Positions 7,795-42,519 are shown, counted from the stretch's first letter. The stretch: DNA of 64,000 bases from Bacteroidetes Order II. bacterium (GCA_016788705.1 JAEUSQ010000065.1:62001-126000), one strand, 5' to 3'. Numbers and translations: made by a program. The notes: generated from the letters alone by a model not told the origin.

Positions 7795-7932
7795 TTACCG
7801 CTAACGGTTTGGGGCTTGACGCAGTGGCGGATTTCGGAGCACAAAACTGTCAATACACCACAAAAGTTGATGCGAGGTAGAATGTTCAATTAACCACGTC
7901 ACCCGCCATTGAGCCAAACGCCTGCTATCGGT
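7795..7932. repeat. attC-like site of cassette C10
   Basis: Leading end of C11, TTACCGCTAAC (7795-7805), followed by a stem with arms GGGCTTGACGCAGTGGCGG and CCGCCATTGAGCCAAACG, and the C10 core GCTATCGGT (7924-7932). The latter matches, with one mismatch, the reverse complement of the C10 leading end ACCGATAAC at 15,750-15,758. The loop carries the AGCACAAAA-type words seen in other sites. Confidence 0.8.
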
Positions 7933-7989
7933 TCGGTGTTCATCTTCGTCCGTTGGCTTGTCGGTCGTTTTGGGTGTGCGGTTGGGTAG

Positions 7990-8048
7990 ACACACTCTTT
8001 GCCAATCTTTGGTTTCAGCGTTGGATTGTGCGGATTGGCAATGTGTGT
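7990..8048. repeat. Second-family hairpin, copy A (3' side of cassette C10)
   Basis: Arms ACACACTCTTTGCCAATC (7990-8007) and GATTGGCAATGTGTGT (8033-8048) are complementary apart from a conserved internal mismatch around CTCTTT/AATGTG. Related hairpins with different arm sequences occur at 15,667, 29,282 and 37,529. It lies between the last gene of C10 and its att site. It could be a terminator-like RNA or a recombination relic. Confidence 0.65.
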
Positions 8049-8074
8049 GGCTATGAAGCGTAGGCATATTCATT

Positions 8075-8812
8075 CTACAATTCTTTTTCTATCGTTTCAA
8101 GTTTATAATTGCCAAGTCTTAATAATGCCACAATTAGCAAAAGCATAACCGCTGATGTATAATTTTTAGTCGTAAAAAAGCAATGAGCAATATTGTTTCT
8201 TAAATTCATTCCGTTTGCTGTGAACAGAAATTTAAAAAAGGCAATATCGTCTTCAGGAATCAATGCCTTTAGTTTTTCATTATCCAATAATTTGTCGAAA
8301 CCAATCCTTTCTTCTGTACCGTTTTCTTTAATTTCTATTGTTTGAGCACCAATCATTCTGGATAATTCACGTAAAAGACCTTCAAATTTCAATACCAAAC
8401 TGTCTATTGCCAAAATGTAGCCTTGTGGATTATGTTTATTTGTTTTTAAATCAATTTCAGTTTGAACAAAGAAGCTTTGTAATGCTGGAGTAAGTAATTC
8501 AATCCAATTAAATCCTTGTGTTTCTTTGTTAGTGTCCAAATAAGTAAAATCTTGTCCGTACCAAGAATCATTTTTTAAGTAGTTAACTAAACTGTCAAAT
8601 GAAATTTTGCCACTTTTAAATCCTTTTGAAACAACAAGCCCAATATGATTGATAGTAAAATTATTTATATGAAGTGAATAAGGGTTGATAACACCTGATT
8701 TGTTTTTGCTGATGTTTTTATTGATGTCGAAGGTCATTGTAGAAACTAAATCGAGCATAACTGGTCTAATCTCTTCTTTTAAAACACTAGCTTTAGGAAA
8801 CAATGGCTCCAA
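8075..8812 (-). CDS. DUF4209-like protein, C-terminal part (frameshifted from upstream half)
   Basis: The conserved end, RNNIAHCFFTTKNYTSAVMLLL, resembles the DUF4209 signature RNxxAHG near the C-terminus of that family. The open frame continues upstream of position 8812 without a stop, through ALNQWWDFTKKKIDYLIENG, back to a run of nine T (A on the coding strand) at 8907-8915. A -1 shift there joins it to the gene part at 8896-9843, giving a protein of about 589 residues, close to normal DUF4209 length. On its own this piece has only a TTG codon (LEPLFPK) to start from. DUF4209 proteins often occur in defence-rich regions; no biochemical role is known to me. Confidence 0.7.
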   Translation of the reverse strand: MEPLFPKASVLKEEIRPVMLDLVSTMTFDINKNISKNKSGVINPYSLHINNFTINHIGLVVSKGFKSGKISFDSLVNYLKNDSWYGQDFTYLDTNKETQGFNWIELLTPALQSFFVQTEIDLKTNKHNPQGYILAIDSLVLKFEGLLRELSRMIGAQTIEIKENGTEERIGFDKLLDNEKLKALIPEDDIAFFKFLFTANGMNLRNNIAHCFFTTKNYTSAVMLLLIVALLRLGNYKLETIEKEL

Positions 8813-8895
8813 AATAAGATACCCGTATATTTCTTTATCATTTCCGTTTTCAATTAGATAGTCGATTTTTTTCTTTGTAAAATCCCACCATTGAT

Positions 8896-9843
8896 TTAAG
8901 GCTTCATTTTTTTTTCGTCTTTAAGTTCAAATAAAACCTTTTTAAGGTCAATTGTCTTTTTCGCTTGCTCCAATAAAACGGCTGTCTGCTCAATTTTTTC
9001 TTTAATATTCGCTTTCTTATATTCTTCTAAAGCGTTTGTGTAATAATGATGAGCGATAAAACCTTTGTTTTTTTCATTTTCAAGTTGGGAAATATGATAA
9101 TCACCTAATTTTTCGTGAAATTCACTTGGTGAAGTTTTGAGTTTTTGACTTAGTAGAACAAGAAGATTTAGATAACTTTCTAACTCTCTGTCGGTCAAGT
9201 TGCCAATCCTTTTTTTTGAATAATCGAAGAATGTTTGTTTAATCGAAGTATCAATATTTTTCCCATTCTCAACTATAAATTCCATTAGGGAGTATTTGGT
9301 AAAATCATTTAGCTTTTCACTTTCTAATAGCGAAACAAAATATGTGATAATTTCAACTTTTTTATATCCTACTTTTTGGCTTAGAACAAAGAGATTTTTA
9401 AAGTATTTGCCAAAAGAATAGCATTGCAAATTATTATCAACTGAAAACGAAGAATTTATCAAAAGAAACAAATAACTTTCAATTGCTTGTTTGGCAAAAT
9501 CAATGTGTTTTTGTGAGCTTAACCAAAGTAAATGATTGTATTTTGCTTTGTATTTTGGGTTTTGTACTTTGCTTGCTCTTGTTTTGATGTAATCAAAATT
9601 ATCGTCAAATAATTCCAAAGTAGGATAAGCGTTTTCACCTACTTGAAATTTCGGAATTTGTATGCCGTTTTCTATTGCAAAGTCAGCAAAAAATAACTCA
9701 TACGAACAAAGTTTTTTAGTGTTTTCGTTTTCTGACTTATCTCGTAGAGCCGTGATAAATTTATATGTGTCTAATTCCAAATACTGTAATTTAGCATCAT
9801 ATTCAAGGTATTCGTAATATTCATCTAAGTTGTTAAAATCCAT
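8896..9843 (-). CDS. DUF4209-like protein, N-terminal part
   Basis: A 315-residue reading frame rich in Lys, Glu and Tyr with predicted helical content and no motif I recognise on its own. It begins MDFNNLDEYYEY and ends DEKKMKP at a stop just after an A9 run (8907-8915, coding strand). Sliding back one base on this run continues into the conserved DUF4209-like part at 8075-8812, so the two are almost certainly halves of one gene. Either the run is a real mutation or sequencing error, or it supports programmed -1 frameshifting. It starts 4 nt after the SprT gene and is the last gene of cassette C10. Confidence 0.75.
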   Translation of the reverse strand: MDFNNLDEYYEYLEYDAKLQYLELDTYKFITALRDKSENENTKKLCSYELFFADFAIENGIQIPKFQVGENAYPTLELFDDNFDYIKTRASKVQNPKYKAKYNHLLWLSSQKHIDFAKQAIESYLFLLINSSFSVDNNLQCYSFGKYFKNLFVLSQKVGYKKVEIITYFVSLLESEKLNDFTKYSLMEFIVENGKNIDTSIKQTFFDYSKKRIGNLTDRELESYLNLLVLLSQKLKTSPSEFHEKLGDYHISQLENEKNKGFIAHHYYTNALEEYKKANIKEKIEQTAVLLEQAKKTIDLKKVLFELKDEKKMKP

Positions 9844-9847
9844 AAAT

Positions 9848-10390
9848 TTACTTTATTGGAATCGAACCTATAATAGTGTCGTATTTTTCAGTTTGATGCC
9901 ATTTTGCCGTTCTCGTCTTTGAAGATGATTCTTTACTTATGTTTGACTTAAAATTTAAGATTCTTTCTTCAAAAGGTAAGTGCCTACATTTTCCACAAGC
10001 TCTTTTCCCTTTTGGTTTTCTGTGCTTGTAATATATATGATTACAATGAGGGCATTCTGCAACTAATCTACCTATAACAGGGTTTACTATATTTGAATCA
10101 TAACACCTATTACCATCACAACCTATTTCAATTGCTGTTTGTCTCCACACCCAATTATGACCGTTTCTTGGACCAACCAATGCGTGTGCAATTTCGTGTA
10201 AAATCACATTTTTTACAACATTGTAATCATTTAATTGAACCAAGTTTTTTGATAAAGATATTATTCTTGGATTAAAACAACAATAACCAAATCTTCGTTT
10301 TGCACGATCAAATTCAAAACGAAACCGATATTCTAAACCATGTTGCTTCATTAACTCAAGGGCTAATTCTCTTGCGTGTTCTAATTCCAT
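9848..10390 (-). CDS. SprT-like zinc metalloprotease domain protein
   Basis: A 180-residue protein of the SprT/Spartan-like family. The protease motif HEIAH lies at residues 65-69, with the likely third ligand H78 (NGHNWVWR). A zinc ribbon follows, with C113/C116 (CPHC) and C132/C135 (CGKC). Eukaryotic Spartan relatives cleave DNA-protein crosslinks; bacterial SprT proteins are less understood. It lies 12 nt downstream of the giant restriction-type gene and 4 nt upstream of the DUF4209-like gene, within one co-directional operon. A DNA-associated protease beside a restriction-modification enzyme is notable. Family call is secure; role in the operon is inference. Confidence 0.88.
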   Translation of the reverse strand: MELEHARELALELMKQHGLEYRFRFEFDRAKRRFGYCCFNPRIISLSKNLVQLNDYNVVKNVILHEIAHALVGPRNGHNWVWRQTAIEIGCDGNRCYDSNIVNPVIGRLVAECPHCNHIYYKHRKPKGKRACGKCRHLPFEERILNFKSNISKESSSKTRTAKWHQTEKYDTIIGSIPIK

Positions 10391-10402
10391 AAACCCAAAT
10401 TT

Positions 10403-13400
10403 TTACATTGGTTTTATCATTTCTTCTATAAACTCAATTTCTTCATTGCTTAGCTGATACTTTTCGTACAATTGTTTGTCGATTTCTTGTGTCGATTTAC
10501 TCCAGTCTATATCTGAATTATCAGTGAAATTTTGAACGGGTACAAATCGAAATGTTTTTGAAGTTGCATCTTGACTTGCTTTGCCCAAACTATGTTGGAA
10601 TCTCGCAAACTTGGTGGTTAAATATTTCATCAGATTTTTTGCTGATTGCTCGTTTAAATTCAAGTCAACACCAATTACTAAATATGATTCAGTACATATT
10701 GTATTTGGATTTCCTACAAATGAATTAAGGTTGTCATCATTTAGTTCTGTTCCAATATTGTTTGCTCTTGGAGTATAAACCTTGAATCGGTCTATCCATT
10801 TTGTATTTTTAGAAATTTCATCTCTTTCTAAGTATCCAACTTGCTTACCCTTACCATAGCAAATAACAGGATTAGTTAATCTATTTTTTGATTCACGAAA
10901 TTTTTCATCTTTAGTAAAATAGCCTCTAAACCCAAAAGGTCTTAATGATGAAATATGAGATTCAAATGATTCAAAATCTTTATGAGAATTAATTTTATTA
11001 ATCATCTCGATGCCAATACTATGACGAATGAGAATGTCAGAATCATCTGTTTTTAAACTTCGTTCAATCATCTTAGGCGTTAAGTCGTCTTTGTAAGTAA
11101 ACACCTTGGTTAATTCAGTTGAATTATCATACCCTTTATCCCAAAGGAAATAGCAAATTCCGCCTCTTAAATTGATGTTTTGAAAAATTAATTCAGGTTT
11201 AAGGAAATCGTGCAGTTCAGAAATATGAGTATCATTAAGCATTTGGTCTCTAAATTCATTTAATCCTCTACCACCTGCAAACCATCTTGTAGGCATAATC
11301 ATAGCAATGTTACTTGGGCTTAATTGCTTTGCTACATCCACAAATAAATTATAAATTGGTTTGGCACTTGCTTGTGCCCCACCGTCACTTTGCTGATAGG
11401 GCGGATTGCCTACAATTACATTGAACTTCATTTTCTTGTTGTTTATTTTAATGCTTTCTTTTTCAATGATTTGATTGTTTTTGTTTTCATCAATCAAATC
11501 ATAACTGGTGAAGGTTGCTTCTATATTTTTCATATCTAAATCTAGTAATTTATACACTTTTCTGGTAAACTCATACGCAATTTTTGAGGTGGGAATGGAG
11601 TAGAATTTATTGGCGACATCTTTACCAAACTTTTTATACACTGCATACACAAACTCACCTTGTTTGGAAGCAATATCTAAAAGCATTGTATGCTTGTCAA
11701 TGGCTTTGGCTGGCAAACCGTTTATGATTTTGTCGGTAACAAATTCGGGGGTTACAATTTCGGAATCTGATAAGCGACTAAATTTTTTCATAGCATTACT
11801 CGCTCTTTCTATTGGAGAAATTGCGGCATCATTGGCTAATGAGTTAATGTTGTGAATTTTATAATCTAGTTCGCTTAAAATAAATGGGTTGATGTGCTTT
11901 TGAAACAAGTTGAGTATGGTGATTTCAAGACTCAAATTTGAAGCTATTCGCAAATTGTCAGCATTCCCTTTGATGTGGATAATGATTTCTTGTAAGGATT
12001 TAACTCTTGAATTTGTCAAAAATGCAAAAAATAAAATCCTTGCATAATACATAGAAAATTGACCTTTGTAATCATTTACTACTTCATCTTCTTTTGATTT
12101 GGATTTTGCATTTTCTTCATTTTCGTCCGCATTGTCATCATTTGAATCATCAATGTCTATTTCGTCACCTTCGCCTTTTGTTGGTTTTACCTCCAAACCA
12201 CCACGAGAACTTATTTTGTTTTGTCTTTCAATTTCAGCTTTGATTGCTTCAATATCCAACAAAGACATATCAATAGAAATAGTTGTAGCTTCATCAAATA
12301 CGCTTCTACTACTCGAATATTTGCGAACTGCATCCAAAATATCAGCAGGTTGTATTTGTACAATCTTATTGTGGTGCAAAACTACAATGGGAGATATTTC
12401 AAGCTCTTTGCGGATTCGTTCTTCTAATAAACTGTTGCCGTTTTTATCCGTATTTACATTATAAATCTGTGATTTATGTTCCTGCATTTGGAACATTCTG
12501 TTTGGGTTAAAATCAACTAATAAAGTTTGAGGTTTCATATTGAATTTAACCACATCACCATTCGGCTCTTTGAAAATTTTTACGAATTGATTTTGTAATC
12601 GGAAAATTGCCTGATCATATTCTTGTGGTGAAGCAGTATCTTTTAGGTAAAGCATAGTATCCCATTCAGGAACAGTACTACCTGTAAGCATTCTATTTAC
12701 GGTCAAAGTGATTGTTTTTATATTCTCACTTTCACATTTTTTTATTTTGGTTTGAACTGCTTGAGTGTCTTTGAAGTTTTTTTCGTTCTCAACTCCAGAG
12801 ATATTTATGATTTCGTAATGGCTAAGATGTTTAAACTTGTTGCTCTTGATTAATTTCTCCAATGCATCACAAGATGCTCTGTAAGGTAAAACGCAAACAA
12901 GGTGACGGCACATTTTGCCATCTTTCAGTTTGTCGTAGTCCAAGAAACTCAATAAATTTTCATCTGTTTCTGAACCGTCAATGACTTTTAGTAAGTCAAG
13001 AATTTCCTTTTCGTGAATAAATTTTTGATGAAAATTGGTTTTGGTGTCTTTGGTTATAGATTGCGGTCTGAAAAGTTCTGAAAAAGCATAGGTTACACCT
13101 TTCTTTTTCATTTCTTCCATTTTTTTACGTGAGGATTTATTGGGATTAAATGCAAAACGAATCATTTGAGGAAAGCCATAATAAGGATTATCCCATTCTT
13201 TGGTTTCATCTTTATTTAGATTTTCTAAATCCCATTGTTCTTGGTCTTCTGCAATGTTTGTAAATTGATAGAATGCAATAATATCATCACTCGTAAACTC
13301 ACTATTCATCAAAATACGATAAGGAGTTCCCGAAAGATGAATACGAATTTTTGCATTAAAAACTTTATTGGTAATTTCTATATCGTCTAAAGTATTGTCA

Positions 13401-14365
13401 TTCAGCTTTAACTCGCTTTTTATTTCTTTGGCACTTAAATTTTCATCTTTTAAGACTTTACCATACTCAGCTGCTCTTGCTCCAAAATGCGTTTCATCAA
13501 TTAGCAATAAGTCAATTTGATTTTCAAAAACTTCTTTGTGCTTTGATTTAATTTCATCTCCTTGAAGGTCTTGTAATGTTAAAAATAAAACGATTTTTTC
13601 ATTTGCATTCTGCTTTTCGGCAATAATCGTATCGCTTGTCAGAAGAGAAGTACTATCTAAAAAACAAAAACCATCAAACTTAATATGGCTTTCAACCGTT
13701 TTTTTCCATTCTTCTCTTACGTCAGCTTTTGCAGAAACCACAACCACCAATTTTGCATTCATTTCAACTGCACAAGACATTGAGGTAAATGATTTACCAA
13801 AACGCATTACAGCATACATCAGCAAGTTGGTTCTGCCTTTATTTATAGCTTCCTTGAACCGTTTTACTGTTTCCTCTTGATTGGGTCGAAGTGGATAATT
13901 TTCACTTCTCGCATAAGTGTGTGTAATTGGGATATGGCTCTCGTCAAAGCGATAATACTGATATTTTGATTCGTTGTTTTGATGTCCACTTTTTATATCT
14001 TCAATCGCTTCTCGCAGGTCTGCCTTGGTTGCGTTTTCAAAAAACTCATTGGAGTAATATGGGATTCCTTTTAAAGCGTTTGGCTTTAATCTACTTCTGT
14101 TTAACTCGTTTTCAAGAAAAAAGTGAACTGCATAATCTCTAAAAAAAGTTTCGTCATTAACTTTTGCAACATCTTCAAACTTTTTTTCAAGGTTAGGGAA
14201 GTGTTTGCGCCACTCATTTAACCTAATTTCAAGAGGTCGATAGGTATCGCCAACTTTTAGAAAATTTGGTATTGTTTCAGTTGTAAAAGCATAGATTTGA
14301 GGTTCTACTCTTCCAATGATTAAATCGTTAAGTATATCTACATTTATATTGTTAGATTTTGGCAT
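10403..14365 (-). CDS. Single-chain restriction-modification giant: GIY-YIG-like nuclease, SF2 helicase, N6-adenine methyltransferase
   Basis: A 1,320-residue multidomain protein. Residues about 20-130 resemble a GIY-YIG nuclease of the T5orf172 type (IYAFTT...FLKVGDT.RPLEIRLNEW). An SF2 helicase core follows, with Walker A-like MRFGKSFTS, DETH box (LLLIDETHFGAR), motif III SGTPYR and a late helicase part around NRMLTGSTVPEWD. After an acidic linker comes an adenine methyltransferase, with a weak motif I (DIASKQGEF) near 905, motif IV NPPY near 988, and a C-terminal part that may be the target-recognition domain. The order nuclease-helicase-methyltransferase recalls type ISP or type III-like enzymes, but the nuclease type differs. 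It lies 3 nt from the upstream methyltransferase-like gene. Confidence 0.85.
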   Translation of the reverse strand: MPKSNNINVDILNDLIIGRVEPQIYAFTTETIPNFLKVGDTYRPLEIRLNEWRKHFPNLEKKFEDVAKVNDETFFRDYAVHFFLENELNRSRLKPNALKGIPYYSNEFFENATKADLREAIEDIKSGHQNNESKYQYYRFDESHIPITHTYARSENYPLRPNQEETVKRFKEAINKGRTNLLMYAVMRFGKSFTSMSCAVEMNAKLVVVVSAKADVREEWKKTVESHIKFDGFCFLDSTSLLTSDTIIAEKQNANEKIVLFLTLQDLQGDEIKSKHKEVFENQIDLLLIDETHFGARAAEYGKVLKDENLSAKEIKSELKLNDNTLDDIEITNKVFNAKIRIHLSGTPYRILMNSEFTSDDIIAFYQFTNIAEDQEQWDLENLNKDETKEWDNPYYGFPQMIRFAFNPNKSSRKKMEEMKKKGVTYAFSELFRPQSITKDTKTNFHQKFIHEKEILDLLKVIDGSETDENLLSFLDYDKLKDGKMCRHLVCVLPYRASCDALEKLIKSNKFKHLSHYEIINISGVENEKNFKDTQAVQTKIKKCESENIKTITLTVNRMLTGSTVPEWDTMLYLKDTASPQEYDQAIFRLQNQFVKIFKEPNGDVVKFNMKPQTLLVDFNPNRMFQMQEHKSQIYNVNTDKNGNSLLEERIRKELEISPIVVLHHNKIVQIQPADILDAVRKYSSSRSVFDEATTISIDMSLLDIEAIKAEIERQNKISSRGGLEVKPTKGEGDEIDIDDSNDDNADENEENAKSKSKEDEVVNDYKGQFSMYYARILFFAFLTNSRVKSLQEIIIHIKGNADNLRIASNLSLEITILNLFQKHINPFILSELDYKIHNINSLANDAAISPIERASNAMKKFSRLSDSEIVTPEFVTDKIINGLPAKAIDKHTMLLDIASKQGEFVYAVYKKFGKDVANKFYSIPTSKIAYEFTRKVYKLLDLDMKNIEATFTSYDLIDENKNNQIIEKESIKINNKKMKFNVIVGNPPYQQSDGGAQASAKPIYNLFVDVAKQLSPSNIAMIMPTRWFAGGRGLNEFRDQMLNDTHISELHDFLKPELIFQNINLRGGICYFLWDKGYDNSTELTKVFTYKDDLTPKMIERSLKTDDSDILIRHSIGIEMINKINSHKDFESFESHISSLRPFGFRGYFTKDEKFRESKNRLTNPVICYGKGKQVGYLERDEISKNTKWIDRFKVYTPRANNIGTELNDDNLNSFVGNPNTICTESYLVIGVDLNLNEQSAKNLMKYLTTKFARFQHSLGKASQDATSKTFRFVPVQNFTDNSDIDWSKSTQEIDKQLYEKYQLSNEEIEFIEEMIKPM

Positions 14366-14368
14366 AGC

Positions 14369-15349
14369 TTACTTTTCCAAAAGTGATATAAATTTGATAG
14401 GATTTTCTATTCCCCAATCCATAATATTACAATAGATACCATTGTGAAGTTTTATATTTGAGGTTGCACAACCTTTGCACTTCTTGATTTCTGTTTTAGT
14501 TTCAAAAATATCTGAGATTACCATAATTTCATCTTTACAACTATTTGGAATAACGCCTTTCAGACCGTCCATTTGCCAGATATTCCAAGAAATGATTTTT
14601 GCAATTTTTTGTATATTTTCAATCGGTGGTTCAATTTCAAATTTGTAAGTAAAGTTTTCAATGAATGTAACAAGTAATGCTTCACGGGCTAATAACAAAC
14701 TGTCTCCTTGCCATTCAAAACCATAAATATTTTTGTATGCTATTTCAGTTGCTTCTAACCACTCAGTTTTAGATTCCAAATTTTCATTTATAATCCTTAA
14801 TTTTCTGTCTAAAAGTCCTATTCTGTCAAATACTTTAATAGATTTTCCCGTGGTGGTATCATATCTGCTAACCAAATAAGGAGCTTCACCACAAGAGATT
14901 TCCAACCGAGTATCTTGAACATAGTCAAGCCAAGTTTTGCCTTTTGGAAATGTGATTTTATCTTTAGTTGTTTCCCAAGCTTTAGTTTTGTTTTTCAAAA
15001 CTATTTCTTTATTGAAAACACCATCTCTTCCAAACCAAGAATTGTCAACAAGATTGTTTTGTGCATTACATATCCAAGAAGGAGTGAAAACCTCTGCCAT
15101 TTCTTTGGAACGTGATAATTGCAAAACTTTGTCTTTATGAACCCTGGGCATTATTACATTGCCTTTTTCTCCTGTGATTAATTCAGGTAATATTTCAGAA
15201 TTGAATCTGTATGAATCTCCGAAGTGTTCGTAATTGTCTGTCGCCCAAAAAATATTTTTTTGAGTGGTCTGGTCTCGCAGTAGTATTCCGAGAATGTCAG
15301 GATACTTCTCGATTAACTCATTTTCTAATATGTCGACAACTACTTGCAC
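14369..15349 (-). CDS. Methyltransferase-like restriction subunit (EVFTP-type)
   Basis: A 326-residue protein with the EVFTPSW segment found before motif I in many adenine methyltransferases, and a degenerate motif I, LEISCGEAPYLVSRYD. The GLLDRKLR and YGFEWQGDSLLLARE blocks are typical of Bacteroidota proteins annotated as restriction endonuclease subunit M. No NPPY/NPPW motif is seen, so it may be inactive or act as a partner. Four cysteines near the end (KKCKGCATS..NGIYCN) might bind metal. It overlaps the HTH gene by 10 nt and precedes the giant nuclease-helicase-methyltransferase gene by 3 nt, so it probably works with both. Confidence 0.75.
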   Translation of the reverse strand: MQVVVDILENELIEKYPDILGILLRDQTTQKNIFWATDNYEHFGDSYRFNSEILPELITGEKGNVIMPRVHKDKVLQLSRSKEMAEVFTPSWICNAQNNLVDNSWFGRDGVFNKEIVLKNKTKAWETTKDKITFPKGKTWLDYVQDTRLEISCGEAPYLVSRYDTTTGKSIKVFDRIGLLDRKLRIINENLESKTEWLEATEIAYKNIYGFEWQGDSLLLAREALLVTFIENFTYKFEIEPPIENIQKIAKIISWNIWQMDGLKGVIPNSCKDEIMVISDIFETKTEIKKCKGCATSNIKLHNGIYCNIMDWGIENPIKFISLLEK

Positions 15350-15549
15350 TTGTATACTTCTTCGTTAGTTTTTAAAAGTTCTTTTACATCAATATTTAGA
15401 ATGTTCGCTATTTCATAAAGTACTTCAAGTCTTGGTTGTTGTCGATTTTGCACATAACCGTTTACCATATTGTAGCTTTTGCCTAGCTGTTCGGCTAACC
15501 AAGTTTGCTTAATTCCTTTTTCTTCAAGTACTTCTTTAATTCTGTTCAT
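15340..15549 (-). CDS. XRE-family HTH regulator, C-protein-like
   Basis: A 69-residue DNA-binding protein. A Cro/CI-type helix-turn-helix spans about residues 5-58 (IKQTWLAEQLGKSYNMVNGY, then the ANILNIDVKELL ending). Its size and position upstream of restriction-modification genes match controller (C) proteins, which delay nuclease expression until the host is methylated. Its 3' end overlaps the methyltransferase-like gene by 10 nt. It is the first gene of cassette C10, about 208 nt from the cassette junction. That leaves room for a promoter and holds hairpin copy B at 15,667-15,721. Confidence 0.88.
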   Translation of the reverse strand: MNRIKEVLEEKGIKQTWLAEQLGKSYNMVNGYVQNRQQPRLEVLYEIANILNIDVKELLKTNEEVYKCK

Positions 15550-15666
15550 TGTTGTCTAAAGATGTCTAGTCGCAAATTTAGGTTTTATTTTTTCATTATC
15601 TCGTTTTTCAAGATAAAAAATGTTTGAATAATTGTCTAGTTGTCCTGTCAGTGCGTTGGCTAAAAA

Positions 15667-15721
15667 TGGCTCTTTTGGTTTTTTGGGTCGGCTTTTGTGT
15701 TGGGCAAAATCAAATGTGCCA
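15667..15721. repeat. Second-family hairpin, copy B (5' side of cassette C10)
   Basis: Arms TGGCTCTTTTGGTTTT (15667-15682) and CAAAATCAAATGTGCCA (15705-15721) pair with the same kind of internal mismatches (GCTCTTTTG against CAAATGTGC) as the copies at 29,282 and 37,529. It lies upstream of the first gene of C10, next to the att junction. Confidence 0.65.
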
Positions 15722-15744
15722 TTTGTGGGTTGGCTGTCTTTTTA

Positions 15745-15885
15745 CACTGACCGATAACGGTTCTCGGCTTTGCGAAGTGGCGGAGTTTTAGCACAAAAGT
15801 TTATACGATGCACAAATGTTGAATACTGCACAAAAGTTTCTACGAAGCACTTCAGCCGCCATATTGCCAAACCGATGTTAGTGGC
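15745..15885. repeat. attC-like site of cassette C9
   Basis: Leading end of C10, CACTGACCGATAAC (15745-15758), then arms CGGCTTTGCGAAGTGGCGG and CCGCCATATTGCCAAACCG around a loop with repeated AGCACAAA/GCACAAATGTT words. The C9 core GTTAGTGGC (15877-15885) is the exact reverse complement of GCCACTAAC at 16,617-16,625. The match resumes after two mismatches (GTGT). Confidence 0.85.
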
Positions 15886-15905
15886 TGGTGTTCTTCTTTT
15901 AATCG

Positions 15906-16586
15906 TCAAAATCTTTCTTTTGAGTCTCCTAAGTTCCAAATATTACCTTCAAGTTCATACTCCCCAAAAATTCGTTTTGCATCTTCAACAGTCCATTTTG
16001 TCCATTCTGGATTTAGATGATTACCATACCACTTTTTTGAAAAAGCCCAAATTTTCCCAATGGGTTGAATGTCGCCTTTGGGAATATTGTGTCGTTCTGT
16101 CCAACTATCTATTTGTTCTTCATTTTCAAACACCAACATATTGCTACAAGTGTAAATTACATTGTCCCAAGCACTTTTCATTGGTATTGGAAAGTGAATA
16201 AAATAATTCTTTTCTTGAATTTGTCCGTTTACAATATTGATTTCAACTTGTTTTGTTTCTGCTCCGATTGTTGTTGTTATTTTTACGTCTTCGTTAAGAA
16301 GTGCAGCAACTCCCAAAGAACACCAAGCACAATTTCCCCACCATTGTCCTTTTTTTGTTTGTACATAAAAATTTGTTGGGGCTAATGAAAATGGATGAAT
16401 AACCCAAACTTTTGGTTCATTTGGGTGTAACACTACTCCGTGATAGTCTTGCAGTTCATACAGTCCATTTATTACTTGTTCTTTGTCGGCTTGCAAAGTG
16501 TTAGCAAGGTCGTCAACGGTCGGTGCGAAACCTTTGTCAATGATACCTTTGATTATATGATAATGAAGATTTGAATTTGTTACCAT
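15906..16586 (-). CDS. Alkylmercury lyase (MerB)-like protein lacking the catalytic Asp
   Basis: A 226-residue protein. The frame is open for 70 further codons upstream, but M at 16,586 is chosen because the upstream part crosses the att site. An N-terminal winged-helix-like part (10-60) precedes a MerB-like core. That core has AWCSLG with Cys89 at the position of MerB Cys96, and a second cysteine (Cys147, YTCSNMLVF) at the position of Cys159. The MerB aspartate three residues after the first cysteine (C-A-L-D) is replaced by Gly92, so organomercurial cleavage is doubtful. It is the sole gene of cassette C9, ending 20 nt from its att core. Confidence 0.8.
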   Translation of the reverse strand: MVTNSNLHYHIIKGIIDKGFAPTVDDLANTLQADKEQVINGLYELQDYHGVVLHPNEPKVWVIHPFSLAPTNFYVQTKKGQWWGNCAWCSLGVAALLNEDVKITTTIGAETKQVEINIVNGQIQEKNYFIHFPIPMKSAWDNVIYTCSNMLVFENEEQIDSWTERHNIPKGDIQPIGKIWAFSKKWYGNHLNPEWTKWTVEDAKRIFGEYELEGNIWNLGDSKERF

Positions 16587-16616
16587 TTTTTCGCGTTGTT
16601 TGTCTTTCTTACACTT

Positions 16617-16753
16617 GCCACTAACGGTTTGCAGCTTGGCGAAGTGGCGGAAATCGAAGGACAAATGTTCAAATTTAGCACAATATTCAGTAGAATTCCA
16701 AATGTTCAATTTAGCACTGAACCCGCCATTTTGCCAAACTGCTGTTATGCACA
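16617..16753. repeat. attC-like site of cassette C8
   Basis: Leading end of C9, GCCACTAAC (16617-16625). Arms GCAGCTTGGCGAAGTGGCGG (16631-16650) and CCGCCATTTTGCCAAACTGC (16723-16742) form an imperfect stem around a loop with two related TTCAAATTTAGCAC-type words. The C8 core GTTATGCACAGTGCC (16744-16758) matches the reverse complement of GGCATTGTGCATAAC at 19,310-19,324 in 14 of 15 positions. Confidence 0.87.
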
Positions 16754-16770
16754 GTGCCTTTTCGCTCGAT

Positions 16771-18540
16771 TTACGCAAACAATTCAATTTGTCCACTTTC
16801 TATTGGTGTCATTTCGTTTATGAAGTCGCACCACAAGTCCAAAGTCAAGTTGAAATTGTATGTTTCGTTTATATAATTTAGTTCTCTTTGTAATTCTAAT
16901 TTGTCAATCGTTTGAGCCAATTTCAAAATGTCAATACGCATTAAAACGTCTTTTGTAAAAGTTCGTTTTGCGTCTGCAAAAGTTATGGATTGCAGAAACT
17001 GCATTGTCGTTTCAGAGTTTAAAAGTATCAACGAATAAACCGCAAATTCCAATTTATCAAAACCCAACATATAGCAAGTGTCGTCAAGCATTACAGGCTT
17101 TTCGTTTTGCGGAAGAACAAGCGTAAAATGAAAGGTTTTGTAAAGTCCCGAAATTGCAACTTTGTATGGTTTGAACGAATAGTCGCCCACACCAAAAATA
17201 GAAAATGGCGGTTTGTTGTTGTAAATACTTGATTTTCTTGAACTAAAAATGTCCTGATGCTCAATTAAATACTTGTAAGTTTTCGGAAAGTCATGTTTGA
17301 TATAATTGGTTTCTTGTCCAACTTTTTTCTGTGTTATAATCGTGTATTTTCTCGTTTCGTTTACGACAGTATTTTTTAAGTCAGAACTTTTTAAAATACC
17401 ATAGACCAAATTATTTTCTAATTTTATTTCTTCTTTCAGCCCGTTTACAAAATGTCCGTTCACTTTGTCTAATTCCATAATGGAAGAACAATCGTGTTTA
17501 ATACCTTGTCGCCACTCAAACGGACATTTTCCGTCAATTTGTTCAGCGTTGGTATAAGTGTCAAGATTGGAAACAAACTTTTTGGACAGCCAACCGAAAT
17601 TCAATTTTGCATTTGCGTTGTTGTAAATATCGAACTCTGCACAATCGAATGTCGGTTTTGAATTTAGCTTACAATAAAACAATGCAGCTTCAACCGAAAC
17701 ATTAAACTCTTTTTTGCTGTCAATACAATGTTTTTCTATGTCAGAAATGGTATATTTTTTTACGAATTGGTCGAAAACAATATTTTTAATTACTGTATTT
17801 TTTACTAATAAAGCAATGTTGCCTTTTTGATGTTGAAAGGTTTCAATCATCATCAAAGTAATATATTCTGCAATGTCGAAATTACCTTTTCCTGTCATTG
17901 CATCTAATCCGTTGTGGTTTTTGAAGTTTGTTTTTTTGGGAAGGTTAGACGAATTTAAACTACCCAATTTTGAATTAGTAACCCAAGGCGGATTGCCGAT
18001 AATTAAAATTTCTTTTGTGCTGTTTTCTTTGGCAATAGCTTTAAAGTCAAAATCAAAAACGCTACTGTGAATGATTGAAATTTCGGGCTTATTTTCTGTC
18101 GGATTGCTCAAATAAAAATCAATGACATTGAATTTGCTTTCCCAAACGTAAGGTTTGTAAATTTCAATACCGAAAACTTTCTTTATGTCTATGAACTGTC
18201 GCAAAGAAGCAACAATAAAATTGCCTTTTCCGCAAGTTGGTTCAATAACAATTTTAGGCGAAATACTTTTTGCTGTCAGATGAAAAGTGACTTTGTTTGC
18301 CAACTCTGTATTAGTTTGGAAATCGCCATATTCGGCTCTGTCGGGTTCTGAAACGATATTTTGAGAAATAGAAATTGTTTCTTTAAGTATTTGCAAATCT
18401 TCCGCATTATCAAAAAAATGTATGAAGCCGAAGGCTTCATACATTTTTTGATTAGCCTTTTCAATAGACACAACATTTTTCAGACTATCGTTCAAATAAT
18501 CTGAAACCTGATGAGTAATATTTGCTTCAAATACTTTCAT
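16771..18540 (-). CDS. N6-adenine DNA methyltransferase of a type II restriction-modification system
   Basis: A 589-residue methyltransferase. Motif I is EPTCGKGNF at residues 100-108, preceded by the NTELANK segment, and motif IV is NPPW at 183-186, which points to N6-adenine methylation. The C-terminal half (about 330-560) probably holds target recognition. It overlaps the restriction endonuclease gene by one base (18,540), an ATGA-type coupling, and the two alone make up cassette C8. An intrinsic-terminator-like hairpin lies inside the coding region at codons 31-44. Recognition sequence unknown. Confidence 0.9.
   Translation of the reverse strand: MKVFEANITHQVSDYLNDSLKNVVSIEKANQKMYEAFGFIHFFDNAEDLQILKETISISQNIVSEPDRAEYGDFQTNTELANKVTFHLTAKSISPKIVIEPTCGKGNFIVASLRQFIDIKKVFGIEIYKPYVWESKFNVIDFYLSNPTENKPEISIIHSSVFDFDFKAIAKENSTKEILIIGNPPWVTNSKLGSLNSSNLPKKTNFKNHNGLDAMTGKGNFDIAEYITLMMIETFQHQKGNIALLVKNTVIKNIVFDQFVKKYTISDIEKHCIDSKKEFNVSVEAALFYCKLNSKPTFDCAEFDIYNNANAKLNFGWLSKKFVSNLDTYTNAEQIDGKCPFEWRQGIKHDCSSIMELDKVNGHFVNGLKEEIKLENNLVYGILKSSDLKNTVVNETRKYTIITQKKVGQETNYIKHDFPKTYKYLIEHQDIFSSRKSSIYNNKPPFSIFGVGDYSFKPYKVAISGLYKTFHFTLVLPQNEKPVMLDDTCYMLGFDKLEFAVYSLILLNSETTMQFLQSITFADAKRTFTKDVLMRIDILKLAQTIDKLELQRELNYINETYNFNLTLDLWCDFINEMTPIESGQIELFA
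18411..18450 (-). promoter_or_regulatory. Terminator-like hairpin inside the methyltransferase gene
   Basis: An 18-bp nearly perfect stem with a 3-nt loop (GAAGCC/GGCTTC at its tip, 18424-18438) lies in codons 31-44 of the methyltransferase gene. On the coding strand it ends in a run of seven T, the form of an intrinsic terminator. It could attenuate methyltransferase transcription. Alternatively it may be a chance palindrome encoding YEAFGF. Confidence 0.5.
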
Positions 18541-19223
18541 TACTGAGGTTTGTTGTAGCTTACAATTTTTTCAATTCCCGAAATGTCGTCTGTTAAGGCA
18601 ACAATTCTTTGATATTGCAATCGCCATTGCAAAGCATTGGAAATTGTCAAGTAACCTTGTTCGGGTGGTGTCTGTAAAATCTGTTCGGCAACTTTCGCCA
18701 AAGTAATTTCGTCCGCAGGAATGTTTTTGTCTTGCAGATAAGCAATAATGTCTGCTTCATTTGCTCCGTCTTTTACCATTTCACGCAAACGGAAAGTTGT
18801 CGTGTAATCGGCTGTCCGTTCTTTGTGAACGAAAGAACAACTTACGAAATTTAAAATTGCTGTTTGGGTTGCAGTGTCGTCTGTTTTGTCGTAAACAAAT
18901 ACAAGAAGATTGTAACCCAATCCGAAAATCTTTTGTTTAGCATCTTTGAAAGGACAAGAAGACTGTGGTTGCTTAATTGAAGTTACTTTTATGTCTGTCT
19001 GAATGTCGTCAGATGGCAAGTCTATTCCTTTGGCAGAAGAACCTACCAAAACTTCGTATTTCTCGTTTAGATGTGATTGAAACTTGTGTTCAATAAGTGT
19101 TCCTACTGCTTTTCCGTCTGTCACGCCATAAAGTTCGCTGTGTTGAATTTTTGATTGTTCAACACAGAATATTTGAGCTTCGTCTATCAGCTTTTCTATT
19201 GTTAATTTCTCTTTTTGTCCCAT
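18540..19223 (-). CDS. Type II restriction endonuclease (PD-(D/E)XK-like)
   Basis: A 227-residue protein placed directly upstream of and coupled to the methyltransferase gene. A candidate PD-(D/E)XK core has E45 in a helix (GTLIEHKFQ), D68 in KGIDLP, and D77-I-K79 in the strand QTDIKVTS. The C-terminal half (130-220) is mainly helical and could contribute DNA recognition. No close named enzyme is recognised. Endonuclease-first order with a one-base overlap suggests co-transcription, so the balance of the two activities may depend on the hairpin inside the methyltransferase gene. Confidence 0.78.
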   Translation of the reverse strand: MGQKEKLTIEKLIDEAQIFCVEQSKIQHSELYGVTDGKAVGTLIEHKFQSHLNEKYEVLVGSSAKGIDLPSDDIQTDIKVTSIKQPQSSCPFKDAKQKIFGLGYNLLVFVYDKTDDTATQTAILNFVSCSFVHKERTADYTTTFRLREMVKDGANEADIIAYLQDKNIPADEITLAKVAEQILQTPPEQGYLTISNALQWRLQYQRIVALTDDISGIEKIVSYNKPQ

Positions 19224-37866: not shown

Positions 37867-38574
37867 TCATATAGATTTAATATAATTACATATTTTATTT
37901 ATATAACTAACATAGTCATTGTGTATAACGCTATTGCTAAAACTACCATAATTACGTGTACTTTTTTCAATACGCAAATTTTGATAATTTCTGTAAAAAT
38001 CATAATATTCATCTTTTGTACTAATTGCAAAATTTATTTCAGGTAATTTTACAACGTATAATAACGTTTTTGTAGGCGTATGTAAAAAATTATCAACATT
38101 ATCCTCTGAGAGTATATTATATTTTTTTGAGTTATGTAATGAAAATTCTTCCCATTTATCCCATTGTCCACTACTTTTATAATAAGGCATTTTTTCTGGT
38201 ATAACAAATATTTGAAAATAGGGTATATTATTGCTACGAATGTTCGCTGTCTCTCCTAACATATTTTCAAAATAATTATTAGAATTTTGAGAGTAATTTT
38301 GCATGACAAATTTAACCCCAATACCTGCAATTACTTTATTTTTTTGTAAAATAACGATATCTACATTTTTGTTTATATATCTTCCTTGTATTGAACCTTC
38401 TTTACCATCACCTATGTTTAGTGATTTTACAATATAATCTGTACCTATAATATTTATAATGTCTTTTGAAATAAAACTATGAAGTATTTTTAATTTTTCA
38501 TTACTTCTTGAGCCTGTTTCAAGAAATGCTTTAAACGAATTTGTTAAAGCATTTAAAAAGTTGTTTTCGTTCAT
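37867..38574 (-). CDS. Nuclease-like protein, partner in restriction-modification cassette C1
   Basis: A 235-residue protein. A possible PD-(D/E)XK-type core is seen at about residues 70-115 (NVDIVILQKN, IAGIGVKFVMQNYSQN, FENMLGETANI), with D and a lysine in the expected spacing but no clear acidic residue next to it. No named family is recognised. It lies 4 nt downstream of the gene at 38,579-39,235 and is the last gene of C1. It may be a second subunit of a heterodimeric restriction enzyme or the endonuclease itself. Confidence 0.65.
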   Translation of the reverse strand: MNENNFLNALTNSFKAFLETGSRSNEKLKILHSFISKDIINIIGTDYIVKSLNIGDGKEGSIQGRYINKNVDIVILQKNKVIAGIGVKFVMQNYSQNSNNYFENMLGETANIRSNNIPYFQIFVIPEKMPYYKSSGQWDKWEEFSLHNSKKYNILSEDNVDNFLHTPTKTLLYVVKLPEINFAISTKDEYYDFYRNYQNLRIEKSTRNYGSFSNSVIHNDYVSYINKICNYIKSI

Positions 38575-38578
38575 TTTT

Positions 38579-39235
38579 TTATTTTTTATAAGGTGGTAAA
38601 ATATTACGTTGTTTAAACCCTTTTATTTTTTTTATGTGTTCAGTTACAAATGGGGTTCTAATGTCTTTAAAGTCTACTTCATATGTATCTCGTTGGAAAA
38701 TAAAACTACCTCCATCATCTTTAATTCTTTTTGTGCCTGCCTTATATAATATACCAACCTTCCCCTGATAGACTAACTCTTTTTCAATGTAACCAATAAA
38801 AGAGGCGATGTAATGATTAAACTCTTCATGTATACTTATACAAAAATAGCAATCTGTAATTACCATATCTTTTTCCATTTGATATTTAGGCAAATTCAAA
38901 ACATAATTCTCACGAAAATTATTGTTTTTTCTTCCCATTGATTTAATATCAAATGAAATTGCTTTATCTTTTACAGTTAATTTAAAATCCATACCATAAT
39001 CTTGTCCATCTATTGCACCAAAGGCTCTTGTTGGTCTTGGAAGTTGATAAGCATCTGCAAAAACTATTTCACCCAATGAACCTGTAAACCTAAATTCACG
39101 TTGACGTTCTTTACCTTGTGGGTCATTTGCAAAAATATCGGTAACAGGGTGATTTAAAATAGAATAATCAACAATACTATTTGCATAATCAACTTGCTCT
39201 TCACTAACATCAATTTGGAAATAATACTCATTCAT
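38579..39235 (-). CDS. Probable type II restriction endonuclease (PD-(D/E)XK-like)
   Basis: A 218-residue protein with a plausible PD-(D/E)XK core: GSLGEIVFADAY (Glu), then DYGMDFKL (Asp), then AISFDIKSMGRK (D-I-K). It lies 2 nt downstream of an adenine methyltransferase gene and 4 nt upstream of a second nuclease-like gene, so the three are one operon and one cassette. Specificity is unknown. The call rests on the motif and on being next to the methyltransferase. Confidence 0.72.
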   Translation of the reverse strand: MNEYYFQIDVSEEQVDYANSIVDYSILNHPVTDIFANDPQGKERQREFRFTGSLGEIVFADAYQLPRPTRAFGAIDGQDYGMDFKLTVKDKAISFDIKSMGRKNNNFRENYVLNLPKYQMEKDMVITDCYFCISIHEEFNHYIASFIGYIEKELVYQGKVGILYKAGTKRIKDDGGSFIFQRDTYEVDFKDIRTPFVTEHIKKIKGFKQRNILPPYKK

Positions 39236-39237
39236 AA

Positions 39238-40743
39238 TTAAAACATTTTATTGTTATTTTCAAAATGTACTTTGAAATTTTTGATTTGTTTACTTGTAAT
39301 GGATTTATATCCTCCTGAAAAATCCTTTCCTGTAATTCGGATAAATTGATAAAATTCGTCAGAAGATAAAACGTTTTCGATTATTCTCCAATCTATAAAA
39401 GGTTGCTTTTTTGTTATAAATATGCCAGAATACATTAACACATCGGAACTTACTTTGTAATATTTAATCGCCCCGTTTATTAGTGTGCTTAGCACTATTT
39501 TTTCTTTATGCATAGACTGCACACCTTGACTTCTACCGTATTCATACCAAATTGCATTTTTATCTAAGTCTCTCGACATTAGTTCTTCTTTGTTTGATAA
39601 TAAGTATTTAAAACAAAAAGGATAATCTTTTATCATTTCATTTTCAGAAATAACAATATATCTATTCCCTACTTTTTTATATGGAAATATGATTTTAATA
39701 TTATCATCTTTTTCGCCTTTATATCTTGAACCCTTTATGCAAGTTTTTAAAATACTTTTCTCAATTAAATGTTCATTGAAATAAACTAAATCATTTTTAT
39801 TTTCACAAGTTCGAATATTTCCAATATATATTTTATCTCTTAATGTAGCAAAACCATATTGGACATCAAATAATTCACTAATAAAAGTGTTTTTATCAGA
39901 ATGTAATGTATTTAAAAAATTTTCACTTTCCTTATTTGTAAAAGACCAATCTCTCATATCTAATTCATTAAAATTAATATTATTAATGGTCTTGATTTTA
40001 TTATTTATTAGTTCTTTATAACAAAATTCATCTTTGTAAGTACCTAATTCAAGTATAGTTATTGCAGTATATGTTGAAAAACCTTTAAATATTTTATTTG
40101 CTTTAAAATCTATTAATGTATGTATCCATTTTTTTATCTTTAAGAAATCACGAAACCTATTATATGAACTGTTATGCAAATAACTATTAGGTGTTATATA
40201 ACCTATTTTGCCATTTGAATTTATCATATAAAAAGCCATCTCGAAAAAGGTTAAATAAATATCTATTGTACCATCTGAATATTCAAAATTTTCTTTTATT
40301 AAATCTCTTGTTGTACTATCTAAATTATGTATTCTTATATATGGTGGGTTGCCAACTATATAGTCAAATAAATTATGATATTTACTGTAAATAAATAATG
40401 TGTTTTCATTAAAGATATTCCATTTAATTTTTTCAATACCTAATAATTGATTAACTAAATTATTTAGATTGTCTATACATTTTTTATATTCTATTTCGTC
40501 TAATTCAATACCATAGATATACTTTTCTAAACCTTGTACTATTTCTTCTTTATATAAATTATTTCTTTTCCCTTCATTTATATAACGCTTTACAATTTCT
40601 TTCAGGAATGCTCCGTCTCCGCAAGCAGGCTCTAAAATATATCTTGTCAAAATTTCAACCTCATAATAATTTACTAAGTCTAATATTTCATTAACTACCC
40701 ATTCTGGTGTAAATACTTGTCCTAATGTTTTATGTTTAGTCAT
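39238..40743 (-). CDS. N6-adenine DNA methyltransferase (Eco57I-like class)
   Basis: A 501-residue methyltransferase. The LGQVFTPEWVV segment precedes motif I EPACGDGAF (about 58-66), and motif IV NPPYIRIH is near residue 131. The C-terminal 200 residues likely form the target-recognition part. It is the first gene of the first cassette, starting only about 26 nt from the junction with the recombinase gene. It therefore probably has no full promoter of its own and may be read from the recombinase promoter. Two nuclease-like genes follow at once. Confidence 0.9.
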   Translation of the reverse strand: MTKHKTLGQVFTPEWVVNEILDLVNYYEVEILTRYILEPACGDGAFLKEIVKRYINEGKRNNLYKEEIVQGLEKYIYGIELDEIEYKKCIDNLNNLVNQLLGIEKIKWNIFNENTLFIYSKYHNLFDYIVGNPPYIRIHNLDSTTRDLIKENFEYSDGTIDIYLTFFEMAFYMINSNGKIGYITPNSYLHNSSYNRFRDFLKIKKWIHTLIDFKANKIFKGFSTYTAITILELGTYKDEFCYKELINNKIKTINNINFNELDMRDWSFTNKESENFLNTLHSDKNTFISELFDVQYGFATLRDKIYIGNIRTCENKNDLVYFNEHLIEKSILKTCIKGSRYKGEKDDNIKIIFPYKKVGNRYIVISENEMIKDYPFCFKYLLSNKEELMSRDLDKNAIWYEYGRSQGVQSMHKEKIVLSTLINGAIKYYKVSSDVLMYSGIFITKKQPFIDWRIIENVLSSDEFYQFIRITGKDFSGGYKSITSKQIKNFKVHFENNNKMF

Positions 40744-40754
40744 ATTTTTTCTTT

Positions 40755-40790
40755 TTTTATTGGCTATAACTTAGTTATATCTGCCCTTTT
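40755..40790. other. attI-like insertion site at the end of the recombinase gene
   Basis: The leading end of cassette C1 (TGGCTATAAC, 40761-40770) touches the recombinase stop codon (40,771-40,773) with the expected G|TT break one base beyond it. The junction forms a near-perfect inverted repeat, TATAACTTAGTTATA. The recombinase's last codons thus supply half of the core site. No long stem is present, unlike the attC-like sites, as expected for attI. Confidence 0.72.
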
Positions 40791-42519
40791 CGTGTTTTTT
40801 GTCGTACTTTTCGGTAAAAAGGGTGTCCAAAGGACTACGGATATTCTGTATGGTTCGCTGACTTACGTGGGTGTAACGCAAGGTCGTTTTGATGTCGCGA
40901 TGCCCTAATAGTTCTTGGATCAGCCGCAGATCTGTACCCGACTCCAGTAAGTGGGTGGCATAACTGTGCCGTAGTGTATGAAAACTTACCGCTTTCCGAA
41001 TCCCTGCCTGTTCTTTGGCGCGGCAAAAAATCGTCTGGAGGCTTCTTACTGCGTAAGGCTCTCCTGAAAACTGTCCTTCAAAAAGCCATTTTTCGGGTTT
41101 GTAGCTCAGAAAGTACTGCCGTAGCAACCCTAATAGGGATTTACTCAATGGAACCATTCGGTCTTTACGACCTTTACTACAGACAATATGTATCAGCATT
41201 CGTTCTGAGTCTATATCGGATACGCGCAGGTTACACACTTCGCTCACCCGTAGGCCTGCACTATAGGCGATATAGACCATGCACTGGTGCTTGAGGTTGC
41301 TAATCTGCCCAAACAATCGGCGTAGTTCTCCTGCCGATAATACGGAAGGGAGTTTTTCTTCTTTGCGTGGACGTTTAAGGTCATACACCACCCGATGTTG
41401 CCCCAACACCTTCTCGTAGTAAAACTTAATGGCATTGATGTGTTGGTTCAAGGTGGATAACGCAATATCACCCTTTGATAAATTGTTGCAGTAGCGCTGA
41501 ACCTCACTTTTGGAAATGGTTTCCACGGTATTCACCCCAAAATGTTCGGCGAATATCCGAAAACAATGGGTATAACCTTTAATGGTGGCCCAACTGTACC
41601 GCATACCGATCATCAGGTCTGTATAAGCGTACAACAGGTTTTTCAAAGAGGCTTCCGTATCTTTCAGTAAGTGTTTTTGCCTGCTACGCCAATCCTGTCG
41701 TTTTAGGGGCTGGTTCAGTCTTTGTCCATTTAATACGAGGGTAATATTTAATACCTCAAGACGGCTTGCCAGTTCACGAACCAACACTTCGTCATTGGGT
41801 ATCATCCAACAACCTGCATTTTTTGAAAATCGCCGGCCAGCAACTTGCTTTACCACCGCTAAGGTGTCTGCCTTCCAAGGAAATCGCAATTGCAACCATT
41901 GTCCGTCGGTTTTGCACTCGCACAAATCGGTGAGGGCATTTCCGTTTGGAATAGGCTGGGTTTCTTCAGCCAATAAAGAGCGGATGGCATCAGGAATACA
42001 ATTCCCGAACCGCGCTTCCAGTTGCTCGGCATTTCTTTTGCAGGCTTTCATCACCCAGCAACGCTGTTCTTTGTGCCAAAACGACTGGGCTAATGTCTTC
42101 AAAAACGTTACATCATCGGCATTATAAGGCAATGCTACCGCCAATTTGCCGCCAATCCATGAAACCTGTACACGCCCTTCCATAAGTTGGAGCGTTATGT
42201 CAACCTTGTGCCTCGGCCTCCCTTGAGCAGCAGTTGAATGAGGATAGATGTCCGCTTTGTCGAACGATATGGGGGGCAGTCCGGTGCGGAAAGATGGTTT
42301 CAGGGATTCCGGCCATGCGATGGTATCGGCGAAACGATTTGTTAATACGCCCATGGCTTCCTCGGTAGCGGGCAGGTGCCAACACTTGCGGCTTCGGCTC
42401 CAGCGCACACCTGATAACGGACGTACCTGCGCCACCAACTGCGCTTCGTAAGGAAAGAGCAATGCGATACGTGCCTCTCCTTTATGTACGATTTGTTCCG
42501 TTTGTATTTGTGCTGTCAT
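40771..42519 (-). CDS. Tyrosine recombinase (integron-integrase-like) with three HARP-like N-terminal repeats
   Basis: A 582-residue recombinase. The catalytic domain has R424 (GLRVSEV), the SKGRKDR lysine near 449-452, H514-x-x-R517 (HTLRHSYATHLL), H540 and Y549 (YTHVS), then RSPLD as in IntI proteins. About 60 residues separate KGRKDR from HTLRH, as in XerC/D, so the extra IntI insertion is missing. A SAM-like core-binding domain covers about 285-375. Before it are three repeats at about 18-60, 126-172 and 209-253. Each has F/L-P-aromatic followed 24 residues later by Cys-Trp (46-47, 154-155, 237-238), resembling the HARP module of SMARCAL1-type proteins. It likely drives cassette exchange. 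Confidence 0.9.
   Translation of the reverse strand: MTAQIQTEQIVHKGEARIALLFPYEAQLVAQVRPLSGVRWSRSRKCWHLPATEEAMGVLTNRFADTIAWPESLKPSFRTGLPPISFDKADIYPHSTAAQGRPRHKVDITLQLMEGRVQVSWIGGKLAVALPYNADDVTFLKTLAQSFWHKEQRCWVMKACKRNAEQLEARFGNCIPDAIRSLLAEETQPIPNGNALTDLCECKTDGQWLQLRFPWKADTLAVVKQVAGRRFSKNAGCWMIPNDEVLVRELASRLEVLNITLVLNGQRLNQPLKRQDWRSRQKHLLKDTEASLKNLLYAYTDLMIGMRYSWATIKGYTHCFRIFAEHFGVNTVETISKSEVQRYCNNLSKGDIALSTLNQHINAIKFYYEKVLGQHRVVYDLKRPRKEEKLPSVLSAGELRRLFGQISNLKHQCMVYIAYSAGLRVSEVCNLRVSDIDSERMLIHIVCSKGRKDRMVPLSKSLLGLLRQYFLSYKPEKWLFEGQFSGEPYAVRSLQTIFCRAKEQAGIRKAVSFHTLRHSYATHLLESGTDLRLIQELLGHRDIKTTLRYTHVSQRTIQNIRSPLDTLFTEKYDKKHEKGRYN

Follow-up and report, generated by a model that had tools for sequence, protein, structure and literature searches.

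A Bacteroidota restriction-modification locus with a conserved three-gene core, a variable downstream slot and attC-like repeats at its borders

Introduction

Restriction and methylation are held in one chain both by type IIG enzymes (PADLOC REase_MTase_IIG, Eco57I family), whose methylase is of Eco57I type, and by the type ISP enzymes LlaGI and LlaBIII, in which an Mrr-family nuclease is followed by an SF2 ATPase, a methylase and a recognition domain (PMC4666363). Restriction-modification (R-M) operons may also hold HEPN RNase genes: PrrC, which has an ABC ATPase domain, belongs to EcoprrI, and DUF4209, itself a HEPN family, was earlier noted in operons related to R-M (PMC3710099). Type I enzymes are known to be subject to restriction alleviation by ClpXP (PMC11109961). 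Proteolysis that depends on DNA is a property of SprT and IrrE relatives, and ArdC, one domain of which is an SprT/IrrE-like metalloprotease, does not require its proteolytic activity to block restriction (PMC7213743). Integron gene cassettes and CALIN arrays consist of same-strand units, each closed by a hairpin site whose ends read AAC...GTT and whose stem varies and covaries, and very few integrons were found in Bacteroidota by IntegronFinder 2.0 (PMC9024848).

Here we describe a locus in a 64,000-nt stretch of DNA (the window) from Bacteroidetes Order II. bacterium (GCA_016788705.1 JAEUSQ010000065.1:62001-126000), in which a sequence-only reading had proposed five adjacent genes as a new composite defence system: a C-protein-like regulator, a methyltransferase-like subunit (M2), a nuclease/helicase/methyltransferase fusion (the giant), an SprT-like protease and a DUF4209-like protein.

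Results

A six-frame ORF list and a Pfam scan place these genes on the minus strand (15549-8075) in the order HTH regulator, M2, giant, SprT and DUF4209, with spacings of -10, 3, 12 and 4 nt; the 10-nt overlap is that of the regulator (15549-15340) with M2 (15349-14369). The run sits between two ~148-bp attC-like repeats (15895-15748 and 7942-7795). Order, gaps and membership in one cassette are therefore as the sequence-only reading had them, and the genes are co-directional, but the DUF4209 gene is not intact, being split into two ORFs by the loss of one base at a run of nine A residues. The features of the cassette, all on the minus strand, are as follows.

15748..15895, minus: attC-like repeat that closes the preceding cassette and forms the 5' border of the R-M cassette (nhmmer, 104 bits)
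15598..15614, minus: inverted repeat ATCTTGAAAAACGAGAT, ~50 nt upstream of the HTH regulator
15340..15549, minus: HTH regulator, Cro/C1-type, C-protein-like, 69 aa (HTH_26, 5e-11)
14369..15349, minus: M2, small N6-methylase-like subunit, 326 aa, GTG start (PADLOC MTase_II, 3.7e-123)
10403..14365, minus: giant, 1320 aa (PADLOC REase_MTase_IIG, PDLC03626, residues 8-1320, full length, 1409 bits)
13886..14365, minus: T5orf172 (GIY-YIG) nuclease domain at the N-terminus of the giant (PF10544, 28.9 bits, cut-off 20)
13319..13897, minus: SF2 ATPase (ResIII) domain of the giant (PF04851, 5.8e-12)
11183..11608, minus: Eco57I-type methylase domain of the giant with NPPY, motifs conserved (PF07669, 1.9e-24)
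10406..11185, minus: target-recognition region of the giant, exchanged between relatives
9848..10390, minus: SprT-like zinc metalloprotease (PF10263, 2.5e-10, 40.6 bits, cut-off 25.6)
9851..9907, minus: captured tail of SprT, AKWHQTEKYDTIIGSIPIK, derived from the 3' end of a 102-aa gene located after the giant in other genomes
8896..9843, minus: N-terminal half of the DUF4209/PDC-S39 protein, DUF7380 (PF24098, 5.6e-7; PDC-S39 positions 93-306)
8907..8915, minus: run of nine A, one base short of the open frame, with an A AAA AAA slippery sequence in -1 phase
8075..8812, minus: C-terminal half, DUF4209 HEPN domain (PF13910, 1.2e-10, 41.8 bits, cut-off 22.3; PDC-S39 positions 475-583)
7795..7942, minus: attC-like repeat, 3' end of the R-M cassette (nhmmer, 96 bits)

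With the giant as query against 84,980 species genomes, we found relatives at 37 loci (designated by L numbers below), mostly in Bacteroidota and with 49-91% identity; a close relative is present in only about 1% of 394 sampled genomes of the phylum. The order HTH-M2-giant and its tight spacing are kept almost wherever the contig extends, M2 is found in all related loci whose contig extends that far, and the regulator is 97-100% identical across many genera. The stable core is thus three genes: the HTH regulator, M2 and the T5orf172/SF2-ATPase/Eco57I-methylase fusion. An unfused set occurs on Rhizobium and Variovorax plasmids, where a small methylase or a hypothetical gene lies upstream of an Eco57I methylase and a T5orf172 protein; the Rhizobium T5orf172 protein also matches the ResIII ATPase. 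As partners of such distant giants, M2-like small methylases are convincing for Rhizobium alone, the Staphylococcus and Variovorax neighbours aligning weakly. Among the viral contigs searched there were no relatives of the giant, SprT or DUF4209.

The domains of the giant are those that the sequence-only reading had recognized, and T5orf172 is present in 33 of 36 members of the family (Pfam). The GIY-YIG nuclease is predicted from the Pfam match; the AF2 model of the domain was poor and gave no fold match, and neither model found a solved relative in Foldseek. Motif I of the methylase (DIASKQGEF, just upstream of the Eco57I domain) had been thought unusual, but because it is near-invariant in 35 giants it is the norm of the family. 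Residues 1061-1215 share 18-25% identity in 12 loci where the ATPase domain stays 79-90% identical, and so variable a recognition region beside a conserved ATPase is the mark of exchanged specificity. Second copies or remnants of the 3' end encoding the methylase and recognition regions lie downstream of an intact giant in three relatives (L007:10479-11714, L019:12225-12422 and L022:12119-12454) and are apparently spare or discarded specificity modules.

M2 does lack NPPY, as had been noted, and has a conserved NxWQMDG in its place, while it retains SAM motif I, largely invariant as EISCGEAPY, and a motif-X-like FTP. Because a Rhizobium small N-6 methylase aligns with it over motifs X and I (E 5e-5, probability 67%), M2 is best read as a small methylase subunit with a diverged motif IV; AF2 and Foldseek gave no usable fold match for it. 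Upstream of the regulator, the inverted repeat seen in the window as ATCTTGAAAAACGAGAT recurs in almost every one of 17 aligned upstream regions, those of distant relatives included, and is a candidate operator of the HTH protein.

What follows the giant is far less constant. Downstream DNA longer than 1.3 kb is available for 32 relatives; SprT is absent from all of them, and DUF4209 is present only in Flavobacterium branchiophilum (L001), in a cassette of identical gene order except that SprT is absent. The slot is otherwise occupied by SIR2 and HerA (L004, L017), an LmuB-like SMC ATPase with two small genes (L005, L032), GmrSD (L015, L016) or a CBASS 4TM effector (L028), and it is empty before the next repeat in, for example, L010, L018, L031 and L035. 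The position after the giant is therefore variable and repeatedly holds defence effectors. In six relatives (L014, L019, L020, L022, L025 and L053) a 102-aa gene lies -1 to +6 nt after the giant; this gene (L019:11972-12280 and homologues) is uncharacterised and has no Pfam or PADLOC match.

The SprT gene scores above the PF10263 cut-off and encodes the HEIAH (HExxH) motif that the sequence-only reading had also named, together with a downstream His and a Cys zinc ribbon. Its last 19 residues (AKWHQTEKYDTIIGSIPIK) correspond to the final codons of the 102-aa gene (GKWHQTEKYHTMKGSIPIK in L019); SprT is therefore a secondary insertion that took the place of the front of the 102-aa gene and kept its tail. 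SprT homologues were found in 886 of 50,697 phage records. On plasmids there were three distant matches, two of which were inspected (Allochromatium and Curtobacterium) and lie outside R-M operons; chromosomal homologues in three sample genomes were not at recognizable R-M loci.

A fixed five-gene composite system is not supported, because SprT accompanies the core in 0 of 32 and DUF4209 in 1 of 32 related loci and the SprT tail is captured; the gene order, for which the sequence-only reading had suggested a check in other genomes, is conserved for the core of three genes only. The earlier reading had itself held that failure of SprT and DUF4209 to co-occur with the other three elsewhere would indicate chance adjacency, and such failure is largely what was observed.

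The two DUF4209 ORFs, although in different frames, match a single 615-residue PADLOC model family, PDC-S39 (S39 below). The F. branchiophilum gene is in frame at the point of the A run and has lost a different single base in an A run ~500 nt downstream. Because each gene has its own single-base loss in an A run, S39 is frameshifted in both cassettes that carry it; a sequencing error may be the cause of either frameshift. The Rx4H motif is RNNIAH in the window and RN-x3-H in six intact homologues.

Seven further S39 loci were examined for R-M neighbours. S39 lies downstream of a type I HsdR and a YgjP protease in L091 and L092, after an MmeI enzyme and an M78-like protease in L087 (where an IS element intervenes), between HsdS and HsdR in L086, and alongside an M78 protein in the hsd operon of L090; the remaining two (L085, L089) have no R-M neighbour. 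Most S39 homologues found thus lie in R-M operons, where S39 is recurrently present. On annotated plasmids, YgjP is next to hsdR in five of the six cases viewed, Runella, Synechococcus and Vibrio among these plasmids. In a phylum sample of 68 loci with an HsdR match, YgjP is directly downstream in 8 (L169-L176), at -4 to +11 nt in seven and overlapping by 229 nt in one (ORF starts were assigned mechanically), and all 8 belong to a weaker-scoring HsdR subclade; S39 is at none of the 68. Because YgjP recurs directly after hsdR, the coupling of metalloprotease and restriction is real for type I enzymes. The same base-rate test weakened a direct SprT-S39 linkage as the source of the protease-HEPN pattern: because YgjP is the standing partner of its HsdR subclade with or without S39, the pairing of protease and S39 could be indirect.

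The cassette belongs to an array. In the window, 7795-29180 is divided by attC-like hairpin repeats into cassettes, all on the minus strand, and comparable repeat-separated arrays occur in many Bacteroidota (L001, L009, L018, L031, L032). Elements of the window outside the R-M cassette are listed below.

16756-16615, 19479-19314, 21187-21041, 21993-21850, 27027-26883 and 29180-29033, minus: further attC-like repeats
15906-16796, minus: adjoining cassette with an alkylmercury lyase, MerB-like (1.2e-36), bordered by the same repeats
16771-19223, minus: second R-M module, a 589-aa methylase and a 227-aa restriction-enzyme-like partner
37867-40743, minus: third R-M module, a 501-aa Eco57I-type methylase and two unknown genes
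40771-42519, minus: tyrosine recombinase, 582 aa, with a ~290-aa N-terminal extension

An iterated profile detected 53 repeats above 30 bits in the giant loci, and all 53 share the giant's strand, as do 8 of 8 in the window; repeats bracket the core on both sides in 9 of 31 loci. In an alignment of 38 copies, compensatory changes affect 13 of 14 stem pairs and the stem sequence itself is variable, so that the hairpin is conserved in structure and not in sequence, as for integron attC. The repeats are lacking in canonical RYYYAAC/GTTRRRY core sites, of which AAC and GTT alone are kept, and match no known RNA family in Rfam; they are attC-like sites without strict integron core motifs. The 582-aa recombinase, a candidate for acting on them, scores 210 bits against the integrase_gron profile (cut-off 265), nearer to integron integrases than to XerC/D; it is without the IntI insert, and its nearest solved relative in the PDB is IntI4.

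Discussion

We think it probable, if well short of certain, that the locus is a mobile R-M cassette of integron type with second-line cargo appended to it. The gene content, conserved core, variable slot, SprT chimera, frameshift and orientation-locked covarying repeats are observations, to which we add biochemical steps that we infer. The cassette would carry an ATP-dependent R-M system made up of a self-regulating HTH protein, M2 and the fused nuclease-translocase-methylase, most likely an ATP-driven methylating and cutting enzyme of type ISP-like layout with another nuclease. M2 and the giant would methylate a short target in the host's own DNA; when incoming DNA is unmodified, the ATPase of the giant would move along it and the GIY-YIG domain would cut. 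By binding the conserved inverted repeat that precedes its gene, the HTH protein would delay restriction. The slot would accept second-line defence genes, here SprT over a resident small gene and a since-frameshifted HEPN RNase, which most likely served as a backup halting the infected cell upon failure of restriction, as PrrC does for EcoprrI.

SprT, whose pairing with the R-M core is seen once, most likely acts on DNA-bound protein. Restriction alleviation, in which the protease would clear the restriction enzyme off self DNA, is a somewhat likelier role than activation of the RNase, because the same protease fold is coupled to restriction translocases that have no HEPN gene. ArdC, whose block of restriction is independent of proteolysis (PMC7213743), counts against this reading. 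YgjP after hsdR is a possible dedicated restriction-alleviation protease; we know of no dedicated operon protease with that function.

That the five genes work as one system, with restriction triggering SprT to cleave DUF4209 and free a HEPN RNase that halts the cell, seems to us doubtful. The 4-nt spacing of SprT and DUF4209 is what such a system might show, a protease precedes S39 in two other kinds of R-M operon (YgjP in L091 and L092, M78-like in L087), and the DNA-dependence of SprT and IrrE relatives (PMC7213743) would provide a trigger; yet SprT is at no other giant locus, F. branchiophilum carries S39 without it, YgjP partners its HsdR subclade whether S39 is present or not (8 of 68 loci with YgjP, none with S39), and the S39 frame is broken in the window. 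We give the same low standing to the broader notion of a three-stage defence in one mobile cassette, in which restriction would detect foreign DNA, a protease of SprT/YgjP/IrrE fold would be switched on by DNA-protein complexes or ends, and the DUF4209 HEPN RNase would then be activated and stop the cell. If true, the same logic would have arisen separately around type I, MmeI-type and GIY-YIG restriction enzymes.

Somewhat better placed, though still unlikely, is the view that SprT and DUF4209 are unrelated passengers joined by recombination, SprT being perhaps of phage origin. The SprT tail is a recombination scar, SprT homologues are abundant in phages, slot contents vary among genomes and the S39 frame is broken in both cassettes; but most slot genes are established defence effectors, and restriction genes elsewhere have S39 and zinc metalloproteases as recurrent neighbours. 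Least probable by far is that the split of S39 is regulation and not decay, the protein being made from both ORFs by -1 frameshifting or transcriptional slippage at the A run. The slippery sequence has the phase that this requires, and reading in the -1 frame gives back a full-length protein whose alignment to that of F. branchiophilum is gap-free around the run; nevertheless, the run is missing from F. branchiophilum, and intact S39 homologues have a single frame.

Under the preferred reading of a mobile cassette with appended cargo, the locus shows a route to composite defence, whereby a constant R-M core moves in an integron-like cassette and varied second-line effectors are appended at a fixed site. 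The interval from the giant to the next repeat is thus a ready source of candidate effector genes, and a testable claim also follows, namely that zinc metalloproteases serve the restriction translocases beside which they are encoded.

Compared with type IIG enzymes, the giant likewise has restriction and an Eco57I-type methylase in one chain and matches the profile over its full length, but it adds an SF2 ATPase, a T5orf172 nuclease and the companion M2; because the ATPase domain is present, it may well not share the ATP-independent cutting of type IIG enzymes at a fixed distance from the site. With LlaGI and LlaBIII (PMC4666363) it shares the one-chain order of nuclease, SF2 ATPase, methylase and recognition domain, and an SF2 ATPase (ResIII) and m6A methylase (Eco57I) are indeed present in one chain; those enzymes have an N-terminal Mrr-family nuclease, which the giant lacks, and no separate M2, whereas the system here has T5orf172 and M2. 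HSDR_N_2 has no match in the window's own genome. In type I hsd operons with YgjP a zincin gene also directly follows the restriction translocase, but there YgjP is a fixed partner and here an SprT-family gene is a single case. As in PrrC-EcoprrI and other R-M-linked HEPN RNases (PMC3710099), a HEPN RNase gene lies within the R-M operon, although here it is DUF4209 with a DUF7380 N-terminal part, and frameshifted, in place of a protein with an ABC ATPase domain. The array resembles integron gene cassettes and CALIN arrays (PMC9024848) in its same-strand units that close in a hairpin site, its AAC...GTT ends and its variable, covarying stem, but differs from them in that the cassette holds several genes over 8 kb, the site is without the strict RYYYAAC/GTTRRRY motifs and the nearby recombinase is without the IntI insert. 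The locus is a variant that combines known kinds, namely IIG-like R-M, R-M-linked HEPN and the integron-type cassette.
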